Source: a virus
DNA length: 39,284 bases
IMG/VR virus record: IMGVR_UViG_3300036401_000116
Coordinates: 1-39,284 of that record
Reading direction: 5' to 3' (one strand)
Shown piece after piece: positions 1,247 to 30,517 of the stretch. Made by a program: the position numbers and the translations under genes. Under the pieces are notes generated by a model. It made no database searches. It was not told the DNA's origin and saw nothing but the letters and a program-made list of their open reading frames with translations. Each line of letters starts with the position of its first letter. The stretch's first letter is position 1.

Positions 1247-1495
1247 ATGAAACCAACCGACGCTGACCTGCACGCCAGGTTCTTCTTCCGCAAGCCGACC
1301 CCGGACACGCTGCCGAGGTTCGAACAGATCAACGAAGCGTGCTTCGAACTTGCGAAGCTGATTCGCGACAAGGTGCCGGAAGGCATCGACCTCTCGCTGG
1401 CGCTGATGCACCTCGAGGACGCGCGCATGCGCGCGAACTTCGGCATCTCCCTGGAGACGAGCACGCCACTGGTGTCGACGCCGGTCAAGCCGTGA
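1247..1495 (+). CDS. Acb2/Tad1 hairpin-like protein, candidate cyclic-nucleotide sponge
   Basis: This 82-residue protein resembles the small helical-hairpin proteins now grouped as Acb2/Tad1-type domains. The family pattern I recall is an aromatic N-terminal segment, then F/Y-x-x-I, a helix ending in a Pro turn, then S-x-A-x-x-x-L-x-x-A-x-M-x-A-N. Here I see FEQINEACFELAKLIRD (about 28-44), VPEG, LSLALMHLEDARMRAN (about 52-67) and a short tail. Known members bind cyclic di- or tri-nucleotides or the Thoeris signal and so block CBASS or Thoeris immunity. The usual Trp before Ala-Asn is Arg here, so ligand binding is uncertain. AAGGAG lies before the ATG. The function is inferred from a remembered pattern, not a database hit. 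Confidence 0.6.
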   Translation: MKPTDADLHARFFFRKPTPDTLPRFEQINEACFELAKLIRDKVPEGIDLSLALMHLEDARMRANFGISLETSTPLVSTPVKP

Positions 1496-2236: not shown

Positions 2237-2460
2237 CCGTGATCGCACACAAGACCAAGTTCCTCGGCATCGGCGTTCCTTCAAGACCAGGCAAGTGCCC
2301 GCACTGCAGCAACGAGATGCCGGTTGACTCGGTGGCCTTCTGCGACGAGGAGAAGTGGCTCGGCTACGCCACGCTGTTCTGCTCCGAGGAGTGTCTGCAG
2401 GCTGGTCACTTGGTCATGGCCAAGGAGCATCACGTCGGCGGGCACATGATCAAGTGGTGA
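2233..2460 (+). CDS. Small zinc-ribbon protein (75 aa)
   Basis: The gene starts at GTG 2233, overlapping the small-terminase stop as GTGA, and its own TGA overlaps the large-terminase ATG as TGATG. It is therefore locked in the translation chain between the two terminase genes. Two cysteine pairs, CPHC near residue 22 and CSEEC near residue 50, give a treble-clef or zinc-ribbon fold. A lone Cys near 37 and His residues near the C-terminus may also take part. It may be an accessory DNA- or protein-binding factor for packaging, but that is inference from position only. It is one of several tiny zinc-ribbon proteins in this genome. Confidence 0.7.
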   Translation: MTVIAHKTKFLGIGVPSRPGKCPHCSNEMPVDSVAFCDEEKWLGYATLFCSEECLQAGHLVMAKEHHVGGHMIKW

Positions 2461-4175
2461 TGGAAGAGTCGACCCTAACGCTGGAGCAGCTTCGCACCGA
2501 GCGGTTGAGCCGGGAACGCGACTACTACACCTCGGACGAGGGCTTCCTCGACTTCGTGCGCGACAGCGGTGCGGCACCGGATGCTGAGTGGCAACCGCAC
2601 GGTCGCTACGCCCAGCTGCTCGTCACCTGGCAGGGCGACCCTGACCCGGACAACCCGGAGATCACCAACTTCCGATCGAAGATGGCGCTCTGGCCGCGCG
2701 GCTCCTTCAAGAGCCAGGTGTTCACGATCGGCCAGGCGGCGTGGCTGATTGCGCGTGATCCGAACATCCGCATCCTGATCTGCTCGGAGACCGCGCGTCA
2801 GGCGCAGAAGTTCGCCGCCGAAGTGATGAAGATCGTGGACAGCCAGTGGTTCCGCGATCGGTTCGGCGTGCACCGCGGCGACAAGTGGAAGGAGGCGTCC
2901 GGCGTCTTCTACTCGGCGCTGCGCACGCGCCAGGGCATCAAGGATCCGACGCTGGCCTCGTCGGGCGTCGGCGAAGTGCAGACCGGCGCGCACTGGGACG
3001 TTGTTCTAATGGACGACGTTTGCTCGCAGGAGAACACCAAGACGCCGGAGTCGATCGACTCACTATGGTCGTGGTTCTCCGAGGTGCAGTCGCAGCTCGA
3101 CCCTGGCACCAAGCTCTTCGTCATCGGCACGCTCCACCACTACAACGACATCTACTGTCGCATCATCAAGGATCCGGCGATCGCCGCGACCTTCGAGATC
3201 AGCAAGCACGCATGGTGCGAGCCGCTGGTGGATCCGCGAGGCAAGGAGCCGACGACGCTCTTCTTCCCGAAGAGGCTCACGCGCGCGTTCATCGCTGACC
3301 GCAAGGTGAAGCAGGTGCCGCGCCTGTTCGCGTGCTTCTACGAGAACAAGCCGCAGACTGGCGACGACCAGATCTTCCACGAGGACTACTTCCACGTCAT
3401 CCGCGACCAGGACGTGCCCGGCTCCGTGTGGACCTACGTGCTCACGGACTTCGCGTTCACCGCCGACGAGAAGAAGGCGAAGTCCAAATCGGACCGCTGC
3501 TGCTTCTGGGTCGTGAGTCTCGACTGCAATCGCACCGCCTACGTGCGTGACCTCTACATTGGTCGCTGGCGTCCTTCGGATTCTTGCCGGATCGTGTGTG
3601 ACCTGTGGACCAGGTTCCAACCACTCAACGTGAAGGGTGTCGGCGTCGAGAAGACGACGCACAAGGAACTCCTCATGTCGCTGTTCGAGGAGGTGCGTCG
3701 ACAGACCTTCATCCGGCCGCGCTTCATCGAGATCGCTGGGCGCAACCAGGAGATCAAGGACATCAGGATCGAGTCGATCGAGCCGCGCTTCCGCGGCGGC
3801 AACATCTACTTCACCGAGTTCGTGCGCCAGCAGTTCGCCACGAAGTGGAAGCCGATGCTCGACGAGATGACCGAGTGGCCGTTCAGCGCGAACGACGACA
3901 TCCCCGACGCGATCAGCGACCTCGACAAGGTGGACGACTCGGGCAAGTTCTACTTCCCTGGGCCACCGCCTGGGTGGACACCACTCGAGGTGAAGCGATT
4001 CACACCACCGACGGTCGACGGGCGCTATAACCCTGACGCCAAGTATCCAGCACGCGAGTTCACCAAGAACAAGGAGCATGATCTGTGGGGCAGCAAGAAC
4101 AGCGATTCCGCACCGGGAAGCCTCTTCCGCGGAACCTCCAACCAATCAAACCGCGACATCTTCGGCCCGCAGTAG
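2460..4175 (+). CDS. terL: Terminase large subunit (packaging ATPase-nuclease)
   Basis: This 571-residue protein is the packaging motor. The ATPase half shows a Walker A-like WPRGSFKS at about 78-85 (Lys84), Walker B VVLMDD at 181-186 followed by a coupling motif, and GTLHHYND at 223-230. The nuclease half begins with a TDFAF strand whose Asp330 fits the first metal ligand of the RNase H-like fold, and later acidic residues near EKTTHKE and NDDIPDAISD complete the expected set. ATG 2460 shares a base with the upstream stop. An ATG further upstream in the same frame would only extend into a shadow of the zinc-ribbon gene. The length is normal for a phage terminase. The last 91 bases overlap the next gene. 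Confidence 0.93.
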   Translation: MEESTLTLEQLRTERLSRERDYYTSDEGFLDFVRDSGAAPDAEWQPHGRYAQLLVTWQGDPDPDNPEITNFRSKMALWPRGSFKSQVFTIGQAAWLIARDPNIRILICSETARQAQKFAAEVMKIVDSQWFRDRFGVHRGDKWKEASGVFYSALRTRQGIKDPTLASSGVGEVQTGAHWDVVLMDDVCSQENTKTPESIDSLWSWFSEVQSQLDPGTKLFVIGTLHHYNDIYCRIIKDPAIAATFEISKHAWCEPLVDPRGKEPTTLFFPKRLTRAFIADRKVKQVPRLFACFYENKPQTGDDQIFHEDYFHVIRDQDVPGSVWTYVLTDFAFTADEKKAKSKSDRCCFWVVSLDCNRTAYVRDLYIGRWRPSDSCRIVCDLWTRFQPLNVKGVGVEKTTHKELLMSLFEEVRRQTFIRPRFIEIAGRNQEIKDIRIESIEPRFRGGNIYFTEFVRQQFATKWKPMLDEMTEWPFSANDDIPDAISDLDKVDDSGKFYFPGPPPGWTPLEVKRFTPPTVDGRYNPDAKYPAREFTKNKEHDLWGSKNSDSAPGSLFRGTSNQSNRDIFGPQ

Positions 4176-4576
4176 AAGCTGGCCAGATGGTGCGCGAGCT
4201 GCTCATCAACGAGTTCGGCGAAGACGCTCCGTTCCTGCAGCAGGCTCAGGATGGCGTCGAGGGCTTCGTGCATCGCTGCATCGAACAACTCGGAGCTCCA
4301 GGCCCGGTCGGCAACGCGATGCCGATCCAGAATGGATCGGACTACCGCATGCCGGCGCGCAACGCTCAGCAACTCCGTCAGGACATGGCCGCCGACGAAC
4401 GTCAGGTGAAGCGCGCGCCAGGCCGCGAAGCCGTCGTCAACGAGCACGTCACCGAGGAGGAGATGGACCGCCGCGGCGAGCTCGCGAGTCCGGTAGCTCC
4501 TCCGCCAAAGAAGCGAGAGCTCATCCTTCCAGCCTCAGCTGCTCCAGCGAAGAAGTCAGGCGACTGGGTGCTGTGA
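4085..4576 (+). CDS. Hypothetical protein (163 aa)
   Basis: The start is GTG 4085, supported by AAGGAG eight bases upstream inside the terminase gene. ATG 4187 is the alternative and would remove the overlap. Residues 1-34 are basic and Pro-rich. Residues about 35-75 (MVRELLINEFGEDAPFLQQ) look helical and folded. The rest is charged, contains a Pro/Lys-rich linker and ends DWVL. No family was recognised. It sits at the junction between packaging and carbohydrate genes, and its stop overlaps the next start as GTGA. Confidence 0.65.
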   Translation: MGQQEQRFRTGKPLPRNLQPIKPRHLRPAVEAGQMVRELLINEFGEDAPFLQQAQDGVEGFVHRCIEQLGAPGPVGNAMPIQNGSDYRMPARNAQQLRQDMAADERQVKRAPGREAVVNEHVTEEEMDRRGELASPVAPPPKKRELILPASAAPAKKSGDWVL

Positions 4577-4785
4577 GCATCTACGAAACAGTCACGGTGC
4601 ATTGCTTCGGCTGCGGCAAAGAGGTAGTCATCCCAGCAGGCCCACACAAGGCGGCGATACGCGATGGAAAACAGAGACCGATTTTCTGCTCCCGGCGGTG
4701 CAACCAAACCTTTGTTGCCAGGGAAGGGGCCAGATCTCAAGAAGGAGGTTCCGCGCCTCACCATCCTGCTCTCGGTTCCGGCTGA
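4573..4785 (+). CDS. Small zinc-ribbon protein (70 aa)
   Basis: The frame starts at GTG 4573 in a GTGA overlap with the previous stop. CFGC at about 13-16 and CSRRC at about 42-46 form a convincing pair of zinc knuckles. Coding character seems to end near residue 55, where the frame enters the start of the glycosyltransferase gene and becomes Gly/Ser/His-rich. It overlaps that gene by 122 bases. Either the small protein really has this tail or the downstream gene starts later than annotated. It resembles the zinc-ribbon protein coded between the terminase genes. The function is unknown. Confidence 0.6.
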   Translation: MSIYETVTVHCFGCGKEVVIPAGPHKAAIRDGKQRPIFCSRRCNQTFVAREGARSQEGGSAPHHPALGSG

Positions 4786-5347
4786 GAAGGTTGATCTACT
4801 CGACACGGCGGTTGGCTGGATCGAGAAGAGCACGCCGCTCAAGCACAGGCTGGTCGTCGCACTGATCGGCACGTTGAGTGATGAGAAAGTCGGCTGGGTC
4901 GCATCACTGATGTCTGCGGCCCGTGGCTCCGACTGGGTGCTGATGCAGTCGGCTGAAGGCGTGAACCAGGCGATCGACCGCGACCTTGCCAACGCCACGA
5001 CCGACTACATCCTCAGCATCCCGGTCGACTGCCTGCTCACCGACCCGGAGTGGTTCGGCAAGATGCAGATGCCGTTCACCAAGGACTCCAGCTGCGGGAT
5101 GTCCTTCGCGTTCGACGACATGGCCGGCAACACGCGGCCGCCGCATCGCTGGGATCCTCGTCAAGACGTTCCCGGTCGCGTCTTCATGGTGCAGAGGTCG
5201 TTCGTCGCTTCAGCCCTTGGCCAGATCAAGTTCGGCTTGGCCGAGGACGACTACAGCAGCCCGCTGCAGCATGCGCTTCGCGGTCTCGGCCTGTGCTCGT
5301 GGGCCATTCCTTCCGTCAGGCTCACACTGCTCAAGACGGTCAAGTGA
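4664..5347 (+). CDS. Glycosyltransferase, GT-A (family 2-like)
   Basis: The protein probably transfers a sugar from a nucleotide-sugar donor. From residue about 28 it follows the GT-A pattern: a first strand TILLSVP, a later strand LVVALIG, then a helix with ANATTDYILSIPVDC, where the strand ending PVD occupies the DxD-like metal site, followed by PEWFGKM. The rest contains the phrase WAIPSVR near the end. At 227 residues it is a minimal catalytic domain without membrane anchor. ATG 4664 is the only reasonable start, though residues 1-27 lie in the overlap with the zinc-ribbon gene. The next gene starts in its stop codon (GTGA). The acceptor (virion protein, modified DNA base or host surface glycan) cannot be told from sequence. 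Confidence 0.7.
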   Translation: MENRDRFSAPGGATKPLLPGKGPDLKKEVPRLTILLSVPAEKVDLLDTAVGWIEKSTPLKHRLVVALIGTLSDEKVGWVASLMSAARGSDWVLMQSAEGVNQAIDRDLANATTDYILSIPVDCLLTDPEWFGKMQMPFTKDSSCGMSFAFDDMAGNTRPPHRWDPRQDVPGRVFMVQRSFVASALGQIKFGLAEDDYSSPLQHALRGLGLCSWAIPSVRLTLLKTVK

Positions 5348-12819: not shown

Positions 12820-13242
12820 ATGAGTGATTGCATCCCACATTCCGGCTACATCGATCCTCGTGGTCGCGGAACTGTCTGCGGCGCGAGGTTCGGTCATCGT
12901 TACAACATCAGCGCCCATCGCGCGGCGTGGATGGAGAAGCGAGGGGTGATACCGGCCGGAATGTTTGTCTGTCACTCATGCGACAATCCATCCTGTGTGA
13001 ACATTGATCACCTGTTCCTCGGAACTCACAAGGAGAACATGAGGGACATGAAGTCAAAGGGTCGGCAGGCAAACGGAGAGCGGCAGCATCTGGCGAAACT
13101 TTCTGAGGATCAGGTCACCTGGATCAGGAAACTGTGGGTCGCTGGAAGGATGACTCTGAAAGAAGTCGGCGATCTGTTTGGGGTGAGTGATTCAACCGTG
13201 CTCGCCATTCATCAGCGTCGGACTTGGAGCCACGTCTACTGA
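12820..13242 (+). CDS. HNH endonuclease with C-terminal HTH
   Basis: The 140-residue protein is a homing-type HNH nuclease. Residues about 28-36 (RYNISAHRAAW) begin the family core, VCHSCDNPSCVNIDHLFLG at about 49-67 holds the cysteine knuckles and catalytic HNH histidines, and HKENMRDMKSKGRQ closes the finger. Residues about 100-130 (MTLKEVGDLFGVSDSTVLA) form a helix-turn-helix that would give DNA specificity. It lies between the capsid gene and the head-tail genes, a common insertion place for mobile HNH genes. It is homologous in pattern to the HNH gene at 37878-38342. ATG 12820 follows 17 bases after the capsid stop. Confidence 0.88.
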   Translation: MSDCIPHSGYIDPRGRGTVCGARFGHRYNISAHRAAWMEKRGVIPAGMFVCHSCDNPSCVNIDHLFLGTHKENMRDMKSKGRQANGERQHLAKLSEDQVTWIRKLWVAGRMTLKEVGDLFGVSDSTVLAIHQRRTWSHVY

Positions 13243-23493: not shown

Positions 23494-24834
23494 ATGCCGA
23501 CAATCGGACGAGACCCGGAGATCACCAAGAACGAGATCGAAGCTGGTAGGCGCGGCGGTGAAGCTGCGCAGGCCGCCTCCGACTCGATCGACAAGACCTA
23601 CGAGAGCGGTGAGAGGAACGCCACTCAGATGGCTTCCGTGTTCGGCAGCGCAGAGGCCCAGGGCGAGCAGAACAAGGAGACGAGGCGCAGCAACCAGATG
23701 CGCGAGGCGCAGACCAGCGACCAGCAAGACATCGAGATGGCTGATCGCGGTCTCGAGCAGCAAGGCCCCTCCCGCGCCGATCGTCTCCGTCAGGAGATGG
23801 AGAACGGACGGCAGTCGGCGCAGATGGACAAGCCTCTCGAGGTGCAGGGCCCGGACAGCAAGACCGGCACCGTGCAACAGACCGAGCAGAGGAAGTCACT
23901 CGACACCGAGAAGATGGCCGCTGCCAAGCTGAACTCACAGGCGCACATGCTGGAGGCTAGCAAGCGTCTGCAGGACGCCAGGATCAAGGGTGACACCGAA
24001 GGCGAGAAGGCGGCGATCAAGGATCTCCACGAGCCGATTGTCAGTGCGGCGAAGCTCTACGACGACGGGAAGAACCCGAACAAGGGGTTCGACGACGCGC
24101 AATGGAACCAGCTCAAGAGCCTCGCCACGATCGAGGGGAAGGGGAACCCTGACCCGTCACTCCAGCAGGAGATCGCGAACAAGAAGTTCGGGCCTGCGGT
24201 CAGTCGGTTCCTGCAGAGCCACCTCAACTTCCAGGCCCTCAAGTTCACTGCCGGCACCGGCCACCTGCCTGACGGCAAGCTGGTCGACATGGCGAGTCCA
24301 GAGTGGCAGGCGTTCGGGACGACGGCCGGCGCCGTGCAGAGTTGGTTGGCGATGTCGGACGCGATGACCGGCGGTCTGACTTCGTTCGGGATGAAGATCA
24401 ACTCGATCGCCGACAAGAACGCGGTGATCAACCGGATGTCGGCTACGGCTATGCTCGAAGGCATGAAGCCGTTGACTCCTCAAGGCGGCTCCAACCCAGT
24501 GCCGTCTCAAGGAGGCGCAAGTGCCAGACCTCAACAACCCGGATCTGGAGCCGAAGGCTCCCCCCCACCCGACATCCGTCGCCAGCGAAGAGCCCTTGGC
24601 GGGCCAAACTCAAACGCTGCCACAGACGAGCAGCAGCTCCAGGAGCGCGAGCAGCGAGGGATCGACTTCCAGCAATCCGTCGACGAGCGGCGGCGGGGCA
24701 ATGCCGGGACCGATGAGCAGGAGCGCGAGCAGCGAAGAACCTACGTCCAGCAGCTCGGCGACGAGCGGCGGCGGGGCAAGGTCGGCGACTCTGGAGCAGC
24801 CGAGTCAATCCGAAGAGCAAGGTCAGGATACTGA
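23494..24834 (+). CDS. Putative internal virion protein, C-terminus overprinted
   Basis: The protein is 446 residues from ATG 23494, with a weak site and an A-rich 34-base gap before it. Residues 1-175 are charged and helical (repeated Gln/Glu/Arg), 175-330 form a folded helical region (LHEPIVSAAKLYDDG, FLQSHLNFQALKF, VQSWLAMSDAMTGG), and 343-446 are low-complexity with two 26-residue repeats containing REQRxxxxQQ and DERRRG. The last 314 bases are also the start of the next gene, read in another frame. Coding constraint in that tail is doubtful, and the folded part ends before it. It is probably another ejected or head-internal protein. Confidence 0.65.
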   Translation: MPTIGRDPEITKNEIEAGRRGGEAAQAASDSIDKTYESGERNATQMASVFGSAEAQGEQNKETRRSNQMREAQTSDQQDIEMADRGLEQQGPSRADRLRQEMENGRQSAQMDKPLEVQGPDSKTGTVQQTEQRKSLDTEKMAAAKLNSQAHMLEASKRLQDARIKGDTEGEKAAIKDLHEPIVSAAKLYDDGKNPNKGFDDAQWNQLKSLATIEGKGNPDPSLQQEIANKKFGPAVSRFLQSHLNFQALKFTAGTGHLPDGKLVDMASPEWQAFGTTAGAVQSWLAMSDAMTGGLTSFGMKINSIADKNAVINRMSATAMLEGMKPLTPQGGSNPVPSQGGASARPQQPGSGAEGSPPPDIRRQRRALGGPNSNAATDEQQLQEREQRGIDFQQSVDERRRGNAGTDEQEREQRRTYVQQLGDERRRGKVGDSGAAESIRRARSGY

Positions 24835-27800
24835 TCAGGGCGGAGAGGGTGGCGAAGAGCCACAGGGCGACGAGGAGCCGCAGGGCCCTGGTGGCCACAC
24901 CCCAAGCAGCTTTCTCGCCACTGAGCAGGTCGGCTGGCTGACCAAGGACATCAACAAGGCGGTTCGATCTGGGGACTCGAAGACCGCCGCCAGGTTGATG
25001 GACGAGCAGTTCGCCAAGGTGATGGAGGGACTGCACACGCAGGAGTTCCTCAGTCAGGCGCAGCATCCTCTGTTGGCGAGTCCCAACATGGAGAAGTCCC
25101 GGCCAGAGGTTGCCATGGCCGCGGTGGCTTCTCAGGTCGCGCGCCGCGAGATGATGATCGGCGACGTGCTGCAGCGGCACGACTGGGGGAGCATCCAGAG
25201 CTACGGCGACTCGATCGTGGAACGCTACAAGACGCGCAACAAGGCGCCGCTGATCAACGAGACCGCAGGCATGACCCCGCAGCAACTGCAGGACATGACC
25301 TACCAGTTCGAGCCTGTCCGCGTGGATCCGAACGAGGTGGCGCAGTTCAGGCAGCGTCTGGTGAAGCTCGACCAGGAGATGAGGCCGCTCGGCACCTCCG
25401 TCTGGACGGACACTAGAACGGCACGCATCGCCAAGATCCTGAACGTCGAGGCGGGCCCAGGCACTCCAGGCTACCTGAAGAGCGAAGAGCAGAGCATCAC
25501 AGGACAGATGTCGCTACCAGAGCGCGCGCTGCTGCAGGTCAGGTTTGGCGCTGAGGAAGCGGCCCAGGAGACCATCGACATCGCAGAGGGTGTAGCGTCA
25601 ACGTTGGAGACGCTTGGCTCGAGGTCGCTCGACGCGCTGACTGGCGGAAACGGCGCCGCGCACTACAACCCGCCTACGAACTGGGTGCAGGACGCGGAAG
25701 GTAAGTGGTGGAACAACGGCGGCAAGGTCGGCGTGAGCGAGATCACCTCGGCCATTTGGTATCAGATGACCGGCCACCTGATCCAGAAGGAGATGCAGGA
25801 CTACGGCGACGCGAAGTCCGCGGCGATCATGCGCGAGAGCGGGATCGAGTCGTTGGCTACCGGCGTCGGCCACGTCATCGGCTCGTTCGCCCCCTACATG
25901 GCGACTGGCGGTGTCGCCACGAAGTGGATCACCAAGGGGCTTGGTTGGTTGGCGACTGGTGGAAAGGCTGTGGAGAGTCTGGGGAGAGCCGCCAAGATCA
26001 CCCAGTGGCTCGCTGAGGGTGCCGGCGCTGCTGCCGGCATGGGTGCCTACGAGGGCGTGAAGAACGGCAAGATCGAGGGCTACGGCGTCGCCTTCGCTGA
26101 GGGCGCCAAGATGGGCCTCCTGATGATGATGATGGGGGCCATGGGCCGCAGCACGGAGCGGCTCCTGAACCGGACGATCGGCATCCCGGCAAAGCTCGCT
26201 CAGGTTCTGTCTGGGGCTGCTGAGGGTGTTGGCTTCGCCCACCTGGACCCACACACCTGGGAGCTCGGTTGGCAGTTCCTGAAGAACCCCAACGCCGACA
26301 CCTTCGCCCCCTACGCCAAGGTCATGGCGATCAACTCGATCGCGATGGCGGCGATCAAGGGCGCCACCGGCACGACCCCTGGCGGCATGGCCGGCGAGGG
26401 GCTTCGTGACCTCCGTCAGCAACAAGAGCTGTCCAAGACTGCTGCTGGCGCTGCTGCTCCAGAAGAGGTGGCTGCCTCGGCAACCGAAGCGGGGGTCTCA
26501 ACAGAGACCCTGGGAGCTCACGGAGAGGCGCTGCGGCAGCGGGAGGTGACGGCAGGGAAGCTGCCGGAGCAGGCGCTGGAGGCACACCAGCGCGCCCAGG
26601 AGACCGGGGAACGGCTCAACCTGGAGCGCACCGGACTTGCTTCCACCGAAGGTGAAAAGCAGGACGTGCGGTTCTCCACCGTGGAGGAGCTGCGGCGGAT
26701 CAAGGAGATGCCCGCCGGCCACGAGAAGAACCAGGCGATCATCGATGCGCTCAACAGGTCGCGTGGGGCCCTGGGCAAGAGCTTCGCCAAGTTCGCCGAG
26801 GACGTGGTTCCCAAGGTGATCGAGGGCAAGGAACTCGGCAAGGCGAAGGAGATCACCGAGGCCGGGAAGGTCGTCAGCAAGATGCTTGGCGTCCAATACC
26901 GACCGAGGGAAGCTCCGAAGGTCGAAGAGAAACTTCCCGAGTGGGTCAGACAGTCAATGGTGGAGAGTGGCAAGAACCCATCGCGCATGTTCAACGAGGT
27001 CGATGCGTCAAGGCCGGGCTTCGCTGAGATGGTCGCCAAGGATCCCGTCGTGCAGAAGATGCCTACTGATCTTCGCGAACGGGCTCAGCGCGGAGATCTG
27101 TCGGTCGCGGAGTATCAGGCCGAGGTGAAGCGCCAGAAGGAGTCGCACGACTTCATCCAGCACATTCAGAGGGAGCCGACGGAGGGCACCGTCGCCGAAG
27201 CCCGCGCACCCTCTCCGCCAGCAGAAGGCACCCCAGCGTCCCAGCGGATGCAGCCGTCACTCGAGCAGGAAGGCGTGCCAGGCACCGCCAAGATCCGAGC
27301 CAGCGACGTGCTCAGGGACATGCAGGGCTACGAGGGTGACCCGGTGCGCGTCCCCATCCGCCAGGGAGTCGGCGTCAGGGGTCACAGCACCAAGGGTATC
27401 CTGGGCTGGTTCCACACCCACGAGAACATCGTGCGCATGGAGGGCGCCAGGGACATCGTTACCGGGGCGCACGAGTGGTCGCACGCCATGGACCGTGCCG
27501 CTGGCTTCTACTCGGAAGGAGCCAGGGAGGTGGCCGGGCTCAAGGCTGCAGCCGCCACCTACCCTGGCTTGGAGAAGCTCCCAGAGAAGCAGCAACGCAG
27601 TGAGGGTTGGGCCGAGTTCTGGGCACGGCACATGCTCGACGACCCAGACCTCAAGAAGGACACCGGCGCCTTCCACGACGAGGCGATGAAGTGGTTGGCT
27701 CAACCACAGCAGGCCGAGATTCGCGCGCAGGTCGAGAGAGTCCAGAGCTCACTGCGGCAGTATCGAGACCAGGGTGCGGTGAAGCGCGGCGAAGCGGCAA

Positions 27801-30517
27801 TTCACTTCTACGACGACGAGAAGAGCATCCAGGAACTCAAGTCAGTCGGCGTGATGAAGGACACGCTGCCGCACAAAGCCGCTGGCTTCTTCCGAAAGCT
27901 GACCACGGCCTTTCGGAAGGCTGTGACTGACGATCTGGTCGGCCTGAAGAACGCTCAGTTCGAAGCGTTGAAGAGGGAGCTCGGTAGCAAGGAGGCGGCG
28001 CAGAAGGCTCTCGAGGAAACGCCGATCACCGCCAACCCGGCGAGGTTGATGGATGTCTTGAGGATGACCGCCAGCAAGCAGGCAGAGAGGTTCTTGCTGC
28101 ACTCCACTCACAACTTGAAGGGTGAGCGCACTGGCATCTCAGGTCAGGAGGCTCTTGGAAGTTTCGACAGCAGGCAGCAGCGAGTCGATTTCGAGAACTA
28201 CCTTCGAGCCAAGCGAGAGCTCGAGGACATCGAGAAGGGCAAAGAGACGACCATCAGCAAGCAGGACAACCTGACGACGGTCGCCAAGCTCGAGACCAAA
28301 GACTTCGTGGATCGTGCCGAGGCGCTGAAGCAATACGACAATCGAGTCATCGACTACGGCACGGAGGGCGGCCTCTGGAGTAACGAGCAAGCTGACGCGA
28401 TCAAGAACGCCTACAAGGTCTACGTTCCGTTCATGCGCTTCCTGGAAGGCCCGAAGGTGATCGCGCCAGGTCGCGGAGTTGCCGAGCGTGGCACAGGGGT
28501 CCGCAGTTCTCACGGTTCGCAGCTCGAGATCGTCGATCCGCTCACCTCGATCGCGGACATGACCAGGAACGTCATCACCAAGGCTCAGCAGAACATGGTG
28601 ATGAAGGCGATGGTGAAGTTCGGCCTGCATCACGAAGGCGTTGGCAGCTTCGTCACTGAGGTGAAGCGCGGCCTCCTTCCGAAGGATCACCCGCTCCAGG
28701 AGATCGTCAAGGCTTTGCAGGCTGGTGCGCAGAGCGATCAGGCCTCAATGGCTCTCGACAAGGTTGGCGAGCTTCTCGAGTCGATGGAGAAGGCTGGGGA
28801 GATTGGTGCCATGGTCACCCTCTTCGGCCAACAGACCATCCCGAAGGGGAGCAAGCCGTTGATCGCGCACACGCTTCACCTGACGGAGGAAGAGATCAAC
28901 GAGTTGCCGACTGAACGCGCACAGAAGATGGCTCGAGAGAAGAACGGGAAACTGCTGTGGCTCGAGACCGACCTCGAAGCCTACGACGCGCTGATGGGCA
29001 TCGCATCTCCGCAGAGCTTCGTCGATCTGATGCCGGCCTTTGCCAGAGCGATCGTGGAGAAGCCGGCGAAGTGGTTGCGCGCTGGGGCCACCGTCGCTGC
29101 GCCTGCATTCGCTGCGCGCAACCAGGTCAGAGACGTGATCCAGAATGCGGTCTACTCCGGCGGTGACGGCAACCCAGTGGCAGCTGTCGGTCGAGCGATC
29201 AAGGGCGCGATGCAGGTCATCGGTGGGAGTGAGGAATCCCAACTGTGGGACGCTCTCGGCGGTAGTGCGTCCACGTTCCACAGCACGGAGATCGCCGCTG
29301 GAAGGGCGGCGCCGATCCTGAGCGGTGAGTCGCGCGGAGTGATGACCAACCTGAAGTTTGCCTATGGCAAGATGGTCGACGCCATCGGCACGCCCGAGTC
29401 GTTCCTCCGCGTCCAGGAGATGAAGATGGCTAGGGACAAGGCGCTGGCGGAGGGCAAGCCGACGCTCGAAGCCAACCTGCTCGGACTCGAGGCTGGCCGC
29501 GAGAGCGGGATCAACTACGCGCGCATGGGATCCCTGGTGCGCGGCCTGAACCGGATCACCCCCTACACCGGGGCATCAGTCAACGCGACCGGCAAGTTCC
29601 TCCGTCAGCTCAGTGGGGCAGACGGAGGCAATGTCGCCTTGAAGACGATGCTGCGTGGTTTCACTTCGATCACGGTGCCGACCTTGGCGCTGTGGTGGCT
29701 CAACAAGGACAAGGAGTGGTATCAGCAGCTGCCAGAGTGGGAGAGGCTCAACTACTGGCACATCGACCTTCCGTTCGGAATTGGAAGGTTGAAGATCAGC
29801 AAGCCGTTCGAGCTTGGAAGGTTGTTCGGGAACCTGCCGGAGCATGTGTTCGACCTGATGCACGGCAGCAACCCGATGAGCACTGGCAAGGTCATGGGGG
29901 ACTTCTTCCAAAGCCTTCTGCCGAACTCGATGATGCCAGCTTTCATGGCTCCGATCGTCGCTGCCTGGGCTAACAAGGATCCGTTCACCGGCAGGTCGAT
30001 CGTGCCCGACTGGATGGAGCGAAGCCGGCTGCCGCACGACCAGGTGACCGCCTACACCAGGTGGTATGGCAAGATGCTCTCTGATGCCTTCCTGCTGACC
30101 GGGCTCGATGTTTCACCGATGCACATCGAGCACTTCACCAACCAGATGACTGGTGGAATGATCGGCCGAGTCAGCGACTTCACCGAGTCGATGGCCGAGC
30201 TTGGTGGGTTCGTGAAGTCTCACGAGCACCTGCACGCTACTGATATCCCAGTGGTCGGCACGATGTTCGGTCGAGGAGACTTCACTCAAAGCCGCGACGT
30301 GCAGAAGATCTTCGATCTTAGTTCGGAGTTCGAACAGAAGGCCGGCAGCAAGCAGTTGACCATCGACGACCGTCGACAGCAGCACCAGGTCGACATGGCG
30401 AAGAAGCGCATCAGCCTGATCATGGGCCAGGCCAGGGATGGGAAGATCTCTCGCGACGACGCGAACAAGCAAGCCTACGATGTCGCCCACGACGCCCTAG
30501 AAAGGTTCAAACCATGA
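24521..30517 (+). CDS. Giant polyvalent virion protein with zincin motif and LPD38-like end
   Basis: The protein is 1,998 residues from GTG 24521, chosen because AAGGAGG lies six bases upstream. Residues 1-125 are Ser/Gly/Glu low-complexity. A helical hydrophobic region with Gly/Ala-rich segments (about 445-560) could insert in membranes. Residues 984-988 read HEWSH, with a Glu near 1028-1031 in the phrase EGWAEFWARH, giving a gluzincin-like HExxH plus distant Glu. From about 1640 the sequence follows the large polyvalent domain LPD38 (RITPYTGASVNATGKFLRQL, then LPEWERLNYWHIDLP, KPFELGRLFGNLPEHVFD). Such proteins are packaged and ejected with the genome. I see no transglycosylase or RNA-polymerase motifs. 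Confidence 0.75.
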   Translation: MPDLNNPDLEPKAPPHPTSVASEEPLAGQTQTLPQTSSSSRSASSEGSTSSNPSTSGGGAMPGPMSRSASSEEPTSSSSATSGGGARSATLEQPSQSEEQGQDTDQGGEGGEEPQGDEEPQGPGGHTPSSFLATEQVGWLTKDINKAVRSGDSKTAARLMDEQFAKVMEGLHTQEFLSQAQHPLLASPNMEKSRPEVAMAAVASQVARREMMIGDVLQRHDWGSIQSYGDSIVERYKTRNKAPLINETAGMTPQQLQDMTYQFEPVRVDPNEVAQFRQRLVKLDQEMRPLGTSVWTDTRTARIAKILNVEAGPGTPGYLKSEEQSITGQMSLPERALLQVRFGAEEAAQETIDIAEGVASTLETLGSRSLDALTGGNGAAHYNPPTNWVQDAEGKWWNNGGKVGVSEITSAIWYQMTGHLIQKEMQDYGDAKSAAIMRESGIESLATGVGHVIGSFAPYMATGGVATKWITKGLGWLATGGKAVESLGRAAKITQWLAEGAGAAAGMGAYEGVKNGKIEGYGVAFAEGAKMGLLMMMMGAMGRSTERLLNRTIGIPAKLAQVLSGAAEGVGFAHLDPHTWELGWQFLKNPNADTFAPYAKVMAINSIAMAAIKGATGTTPGGMAGEGLRDLRQQQELSKTAAGAAAPEEVAASATEAGVSTETLGAHGEALRQREVTAGKLPEQALEAHQRAQETGERLNLERTGLASTEGEKQDVRFSTVEELRRIKEMPAGHEKNQAIIDALNRSRGALGKSFAKFAEDVVPKVIEGKELGKAKEITEAGKVVSKMLGVQYRPREAPKVEEKLPEWVRQSMVESGKNPSRMFNEVDASRPGFAEMVAKDPVVQKMPTDLRERAQRGDLSVAEYQAEVKRQKESHDFIQHIQREPTEGTVAEARAPSPPAEGTPASQRMQPSLEQEGVPGTAKIRASDVLRDMQGYEGDPVRVPIRQGVGVRGHSTKGILGWFHTHENIVRMEGARDIVTGAHEWSHAMDRAAGFYSEGAREVAGLKAAAATYPGLEKLPEKQQRSEGWAEFWARHMLDDPDLKKDTGAFHDEAMKWLAQPQQAEIRAQVERVQSSLRQYRDQGAVKRGEAAIHFYDDEKSIQELKSVGVMKDTLPHKAAGFFRKLTTAFRKAVTDDLVGLKNAQFEALKRELGSKEAAQKALEETPITANPARLMDVLRMTASKQAERFLLHSTHNLKGERTGISGQEALGSFDSRQQRVDFENYLRAKRELEDIEKGKETTISKQDNLTTVAKLETKDFVDRAEALKQYDNRVIDYGTEGGLWSNEQADAIKNAYKVYVPFMRFLEGPKVIAPGRGVAERGTGVRSSHGSQLEIVDPLTSIADMTRNVITKAQQNMVMKAMVKFGLHHEGVGSFVTEVKRGLLPKDHPLQEIVKALQAGAQSDQASMALDKVGELLESMEKAGEIGAMVTLFGQQTIPKGSKPLIAHTLHLTEEEINELPTERAQKMAREKNGKLLWLETDLEAYDALMGIASPQSFVDLMPAFARAIVEKPAKWLRAGATVAAPAFAARNQVRDVIQNAVYSGGDGNPVAAVGRAIKGAMQVIGGSEESQLWDALGGSASTFHSTEIAAGRAAPILSGESRGVMTNLKFAYGKMVDAIGTPESFLRVQEMKMARDKALAEGKPTLEANLLGLEAGRESGINYARMGSLVRGLNRITPYTGASVNATGKFLRQLSGADGGNVALKTMLRGFTSITVPTLALWWLNKDKEWYQQLPEWERLNYWHIDLPFGIGRLKISKPFELGRLFGNLPEHVFDLMHGSNPMSTGKVMGDFFQSLLPNSMMPAFMAPIVAAWANKDPFTGRSIVPDWMERSRLPHDQVTAYTRWYGKMLSDAFLLTGLDVSPMHIEHFTNQMTGGMIGRVSDFTESMAELGGFVKSHEHLHATDIPVVGTMFGRGDFTQSRDVQKIFDLSSEFEQKAGSKQLTIDDRRQQHQVDMAKKRISLIMGQARDGKISRDDANKQAYDVAHDALERFKP
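24640..24779 (+). repeat. 78-base tandem repeat inside a two-frame overlap
   Basis: A 78-base unit starting CAGGAGCGCGAGCAGCGA at 24640 recurs at 24718 after exactly 26 codons, with matching GACGAGCGGCGGCGGGGCAA near 24681 and 24759. Both overlapping genes translate it: Arg/Glu/Gln-rich repeats in one frame and Ser/Gly-rich repeats (SASSE and STSGGGA type) in the other. Confidence 0.85.

Follow-up and report, generated by a model that had tools for sequence, protein, structure and literature searches.

The Acb2/Tad1 hairpin family (PF24729) is known for phage sponges, proteins that sequester the alarm molecules of bacteria; an Acb2-type sponge is a homohexamer that binds cyclic oligonucleotides tightly, leaves them uncleaved and rescues the phage from CBASS. 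The family includes T4 Acb2 itself (Vs.4; PDB 7UQ2), which, like Pseudomonas Acb2 (8H2J, 8H2X), is built from a short N-terminal helix and two antiparallel helices; Tad1 differs in placing an N-terminal antiparallel beta-sheet before its two helices (PMC12043709). In T4 Acb2 the mutation Y8A disrupts both dinucleotide binding and the triggering of Panoptes (PMC12657218; PMC12657230), and Bas35, which belongs to the phage set scored as Panoptes-resistant, carries an Acb2 with a natural T68M change described as decreasing binding affinity (PMC12657230). The binding site of T2 Acb2 is probably disrupted (PMC12657218); the T2 protein reads LRDKPH where T4 reads KGYKPH, with Asp in place of Tyr. 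According to predictions from the Panoptes work, a phage has to give up Acb2 or retune it (PMC12657218).

Here we describe a variant of this hairpin gene at positions 1247-1495 (+ strand) of the window, by which we mean the whole 39,284-base IMG/VR contig. The gene is the only PF24729 member in the contig, and the phage carries SU10-like portal, capsid and adaptor genes.

Family membership and predicted fold

The 1247-1495 gene is an intact open reading frame of 82 codons that starts with ATG; AAGGAG precedes it, where the neighbouring upstream gene ends. The first-pass annotation had called it Acb2/Tad1-like on the strength of a hairpin motif, to be checked by HMM search and structure prediction. 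The motif is present in the product, and the 82-residue protein matches PF24729 over residues 14-64 (E=2.9e-10; 40.6 bits, above the curated Pfam cut-off of 27 bits) as well as phrog_1454, a family without an assigned function (E=4.4e-14); these matches, together with a conserved slot in related phages, make the motif more than a chance resemblance. A PDB search with the window protein as a single sequence gave no match; family sequence profiles reached 9PTQ, which by its PDB title is Acb2 homolog 43 with 3'cADPR, at 4.6e-8 and 2.6e-6 in two profile searches.

An AlphaFold2 model of the single chain, built from 41 aligned sequences, has helices at residues 5-12, 22-42 and 47-68, and the latter two form a long antiparallel pair as in solved PF24729 members, with a pLDDT of about 98 for the hairpin part. 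The best Foldseek match is 9PTQ (probability 1.00; TM 0.63/0.74; rmsd 1.2 over 56 columns), with T4 Acb2 7UQ2 next; since the Foldseek E values exceed 0.1 and helical hairpins are common, the fold fits the HMM result and is by itself no proof of kinship. VIA-align likewise pairs the model with 9PTQ (Z 7.2, rmsd 1.7, 61 residues), with the other Acb2 structures 7UQ2 (Z 6.7) and 8H2X (Z 5.9), and with CbTad1 8KBF (Z 4.8). VIA rows of the 4DCI type (Z 7.4, rmsd 6.4) were discarded as generic helix matches.

Like homolog 43, with which it shares 25% identity, the window protein is a short hairpin without a long loop insertion, whereas T4 and Pseudomonas Acb2 have a longer hairpin insertion. With Tad1 it has a C-terminal hairpin segment in common, a weak resemblance (E about 0.002), but the model contains no strands and thus lacks the N-terminal beta-sheet domain, which rules out Tad1 proper as its identity. 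The gene is therefore a true PF24729 member of Acb2 architecture, and of the original Acb2/Tad1-type assignment the family stands and the Tad1 part falls away. Elsewhere in the family, cyanophage S-2L carries a PF24729 hairpin stretch (2501-2713) that lies between tail genes, mostly without an annotated gene of its own, and has the family Tyr, Arg and Thr all present.

A conserved slot with canonical, tandem and variant copies

The gene had been placed just ahead of the terminase. It does lie upstream, but two genes intervene before the large terminase subunit (terL, 2460-4175, +; phrog_38, E=4.8e-66): a terS-like gene (1499-2236, +), so called by position and synteny and without a family match in Pfam and phrog searches, and a small Cys-rich ORF (2236-2460). 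On the other side lies a conserved neighbour, orfB (869-1237, +), which is 98-100% identical in the related contigs L001, L016 and L017 and found no family match in the same two types of search. L001 and L016-L020 all have the order orfB, hairpin gene, terS-like gene, small ORF, terL; L021 keeps orfB, hairpin gene and terS. The small ORF is 100% identical to that of L016 and 58% identical to that of L001, with flanking genes at 96-100%, a pattern that points to mosaic exchange.

The hairpin copies in this slot are of two kinds. L016 and L017 have terL genes 99-100% identical to that of the window, but their hairpin copy, of a kind that we call canonical, is only 68-71% identical. The sister phage L001 carries a doublet in tandem, with a canonical copy (L001a, 4319-4561) followed by a variant (L001b, 4571-4816) that is 90% identical to the window gene and is its ortholog; the 36 other viral contigs searched have one hairpin copy each, and the window gene and L001b are the two variant sequences known. 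The canonical copies of the clade (L001a, L016, L017, L019, L020) occupy the same slot and are 60-71% identical to the window protein.

A 71-residue QSregVF_b (PF12843) gene (4820-5035) separates the hairpin gene from terS in L001, and L018 and L019 have relatives of it ahead of terS; the window has none between 1495 and 1499. Judged by the junctions, the window could have lost the canonical copy together with its leader, as well as the QSregVF_b gene, a direction of change that we infer. These near-identical phages thus form a natural series (canonical alone, canonical and variant in tandem, variant alone), which makes the trade-off between evading CBASS/Thoeris and tripping decoys directly testable with three small genes.

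Replacements at ligand-pocket positions

Alignment with T4 and Pseudomonas Acb2 equates the Tyr of the family motif F-x-Y-H with T4 Y8 and Pseudomonas Y11, the Arg of S-R-E-K with Pseudomonas R67, and the Thr of L-A-L-T with T4 T68. The window protein has replaced all of these and the motif His (Y14F, H15R, R47I and T54M), at codons 1286-1291 for F14 and R15, 1385-1387 for I47 and 1406-1408 for M54 (all +). At the stacking-Tyr site L001b has Asp, as T2 Acb2 does. We take Pseudomonas R67 to be a ligand residue, and presumably the same holds for the basic residue at Pseudomonas K26 and T4 K23, which is N29 in the window protein and Asn also in the canonical clade copies.

The Thr is retained by 121, and the Arg by 119, of 123 relatives with data, figures that may be overstated since the relatives were partly collected with motif-like patterns; Met at the one site and Ile at the other occur only in the window protein and L001b. 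Where aligned, both residues are also kept in bacterial-genome members found by profile. Across 125 distinct family stretches, this pair alone has lost Tyr, Arg and Thr jointly. The scaffold residues are retained in the variant, and 10 of 15 highly conserved positions are kept in the window protein, the five lost including the pocket residues. Variant and canonical copies differ at 16 of 70 core positions, all three named contact sites among them, for which random placement gives p about 0.01, a value that serves as a guide only because the sites were named after the alignment had been inspected.

The first-pass annotation had instead singled out the replacement of a conserved Trp by Arg, from which it suggested another ligand. 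That replacement is real (R62, codon 1430-1432, +), but all five canonical clade copies examined have Arg as well, so it is not special to the window gene and is ruled out as a sign of a new ligand. To judge from the alignments, what sets the window protein apart from these copies is the loss of Tyr, His, Arg and Thr; the copies have all four, and share its Arg for Trp. The idea of an anti-defence sponge holds as far as family membership goes, but sponge activity is only putative, with Tyr, Arg and Thr each replaced at a site whose role in ligand binding is known or inferred; a PF24729 match alone is insufficient for annotation as a working sponge, and the suitable label for the gene is Acb2-family hairpin protein, ligand unproven.

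By alignment, the Thr-to-Met change of the window protein and L001b corresponds, in T4 numbering, to T68M in Bas35; one of the pocket replacements has thus been described too in a phage that evades a bacterial trap for such proteins. Through this parallel the window variant is possibly linked to Panoptes.

Origin and possible role of the variant

The variant has evolved fast: the branch of the variant pair is 0.27 long, whereas those of the nearest canonical copies measure 0-0.06. Its dN/dS is 0.57-0.65 between the window gene and L001a, L016 and L017, compared with 0.15-0.17 among these three canonical copies, which are under stronger constraint, and 0.01-0.04 for terL in the near group. Comparison of the window gene with L017 (p=0.16) and with L001a (p=0.09) does not reject neutrality, and L001b against L001a departs slightly from it (p=0.011).

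Among retuning, disabling and decay, we favour pocket-focused change. Our main reading, to which we give a probability of about 0.5, is that the window gene is a divergent paralog of an Acb2/Tad1-hairpin sponge whose scaffold was kept and whose ligand pocket was rewritten, and either retuned or disabled. Most likely it began as a second copy of a canonical sponge gene next to the terminase genes; this variant copy would then have changed fast in the pocket (Tyr to Phe, or Asp in the sister copy; His to Arg; Arg to Ile; Thr to Met) and retained the helical hairpin that serves as the scaffold of Acb2-type oligomers. Such a protein would be expected to show weaker or different binding of cyclic di- or trinucleotides and cADPR-type signals, the usual ligands. 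The likely advantage would be to keep the sponge fold without draining a signal whose loss trips Panoptes-type decoys; alternatively, the variant may target another signal. More tentatively, the phage lineage as a whole, with its canonical, variant or tandem copies, might answer a Panoptes-type dilemma through a variant whose ligand lies beyond the signals known so far, or which retains the fold and leaves the guarded signal undrained.

The alternative that survives best is decay, in which a duplicate without function drifts unselected and the window phage happened to keep only that copy. The two variants differ from each other with a dN/dS of 0.59, for which neutrality is not rejected (p=0.16); this makes decay possible, and the renewed difference at the Tyr site (Phe, Asp) and the disappearance of the defining pocket residues fit it too; we nevertheless regard it as doubtful, given a reading frame that is intact in both genomes, scaffold residues that are still present, the slight constraint between L001b and L001a, and the variant's standing as the sole copy found in the window record. 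It is improbable that the protein is an ordinary Acb2-type sponge that still binds the usual CBASS/Thoeris signal and blocks that defence: beyond the PF24729 match, Phe could stack like Tyr, and homolog 43, solved with 3'cADPR, has Thr for Tyr by alignment, but that protein keeps the His, the basic residue, the Arg and the Thr (GREKS, KT) where the window protein has R15, N29, I47 and M54, and lower affinity is reported for T68M. Least likely is a subunit that enters canonical-sponge hexamers and alters their pockets, an arrangement suggested by the tandem doublet of L001 with its near-identical scaffold motifs and disfavoured by the lack of a second copy in the window record, though the record may be incomplete.

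Pocket-focused change in a kept scaffold remains our preferred account of the window gene. Near-identical phages were not found in GenBank, and a host search of genome contigs with the clade alignment found no relative. The window holds several further genes of note. A glycosyltransferase-like gene (PF13524; 5410-6693) lies between the terminase and portal genes, and an HNH endonuclease gene, perhaps encoding a homing endonuclease, sits directly 3' of the major capsid gene (12820-13242). The structural module includes a collagen-like repeat protein (PF01391; 13843-14814), and close to the end of a reading frame of 1998 residues (24521-30517) lies LPD38, a large polyvalent protein domain.
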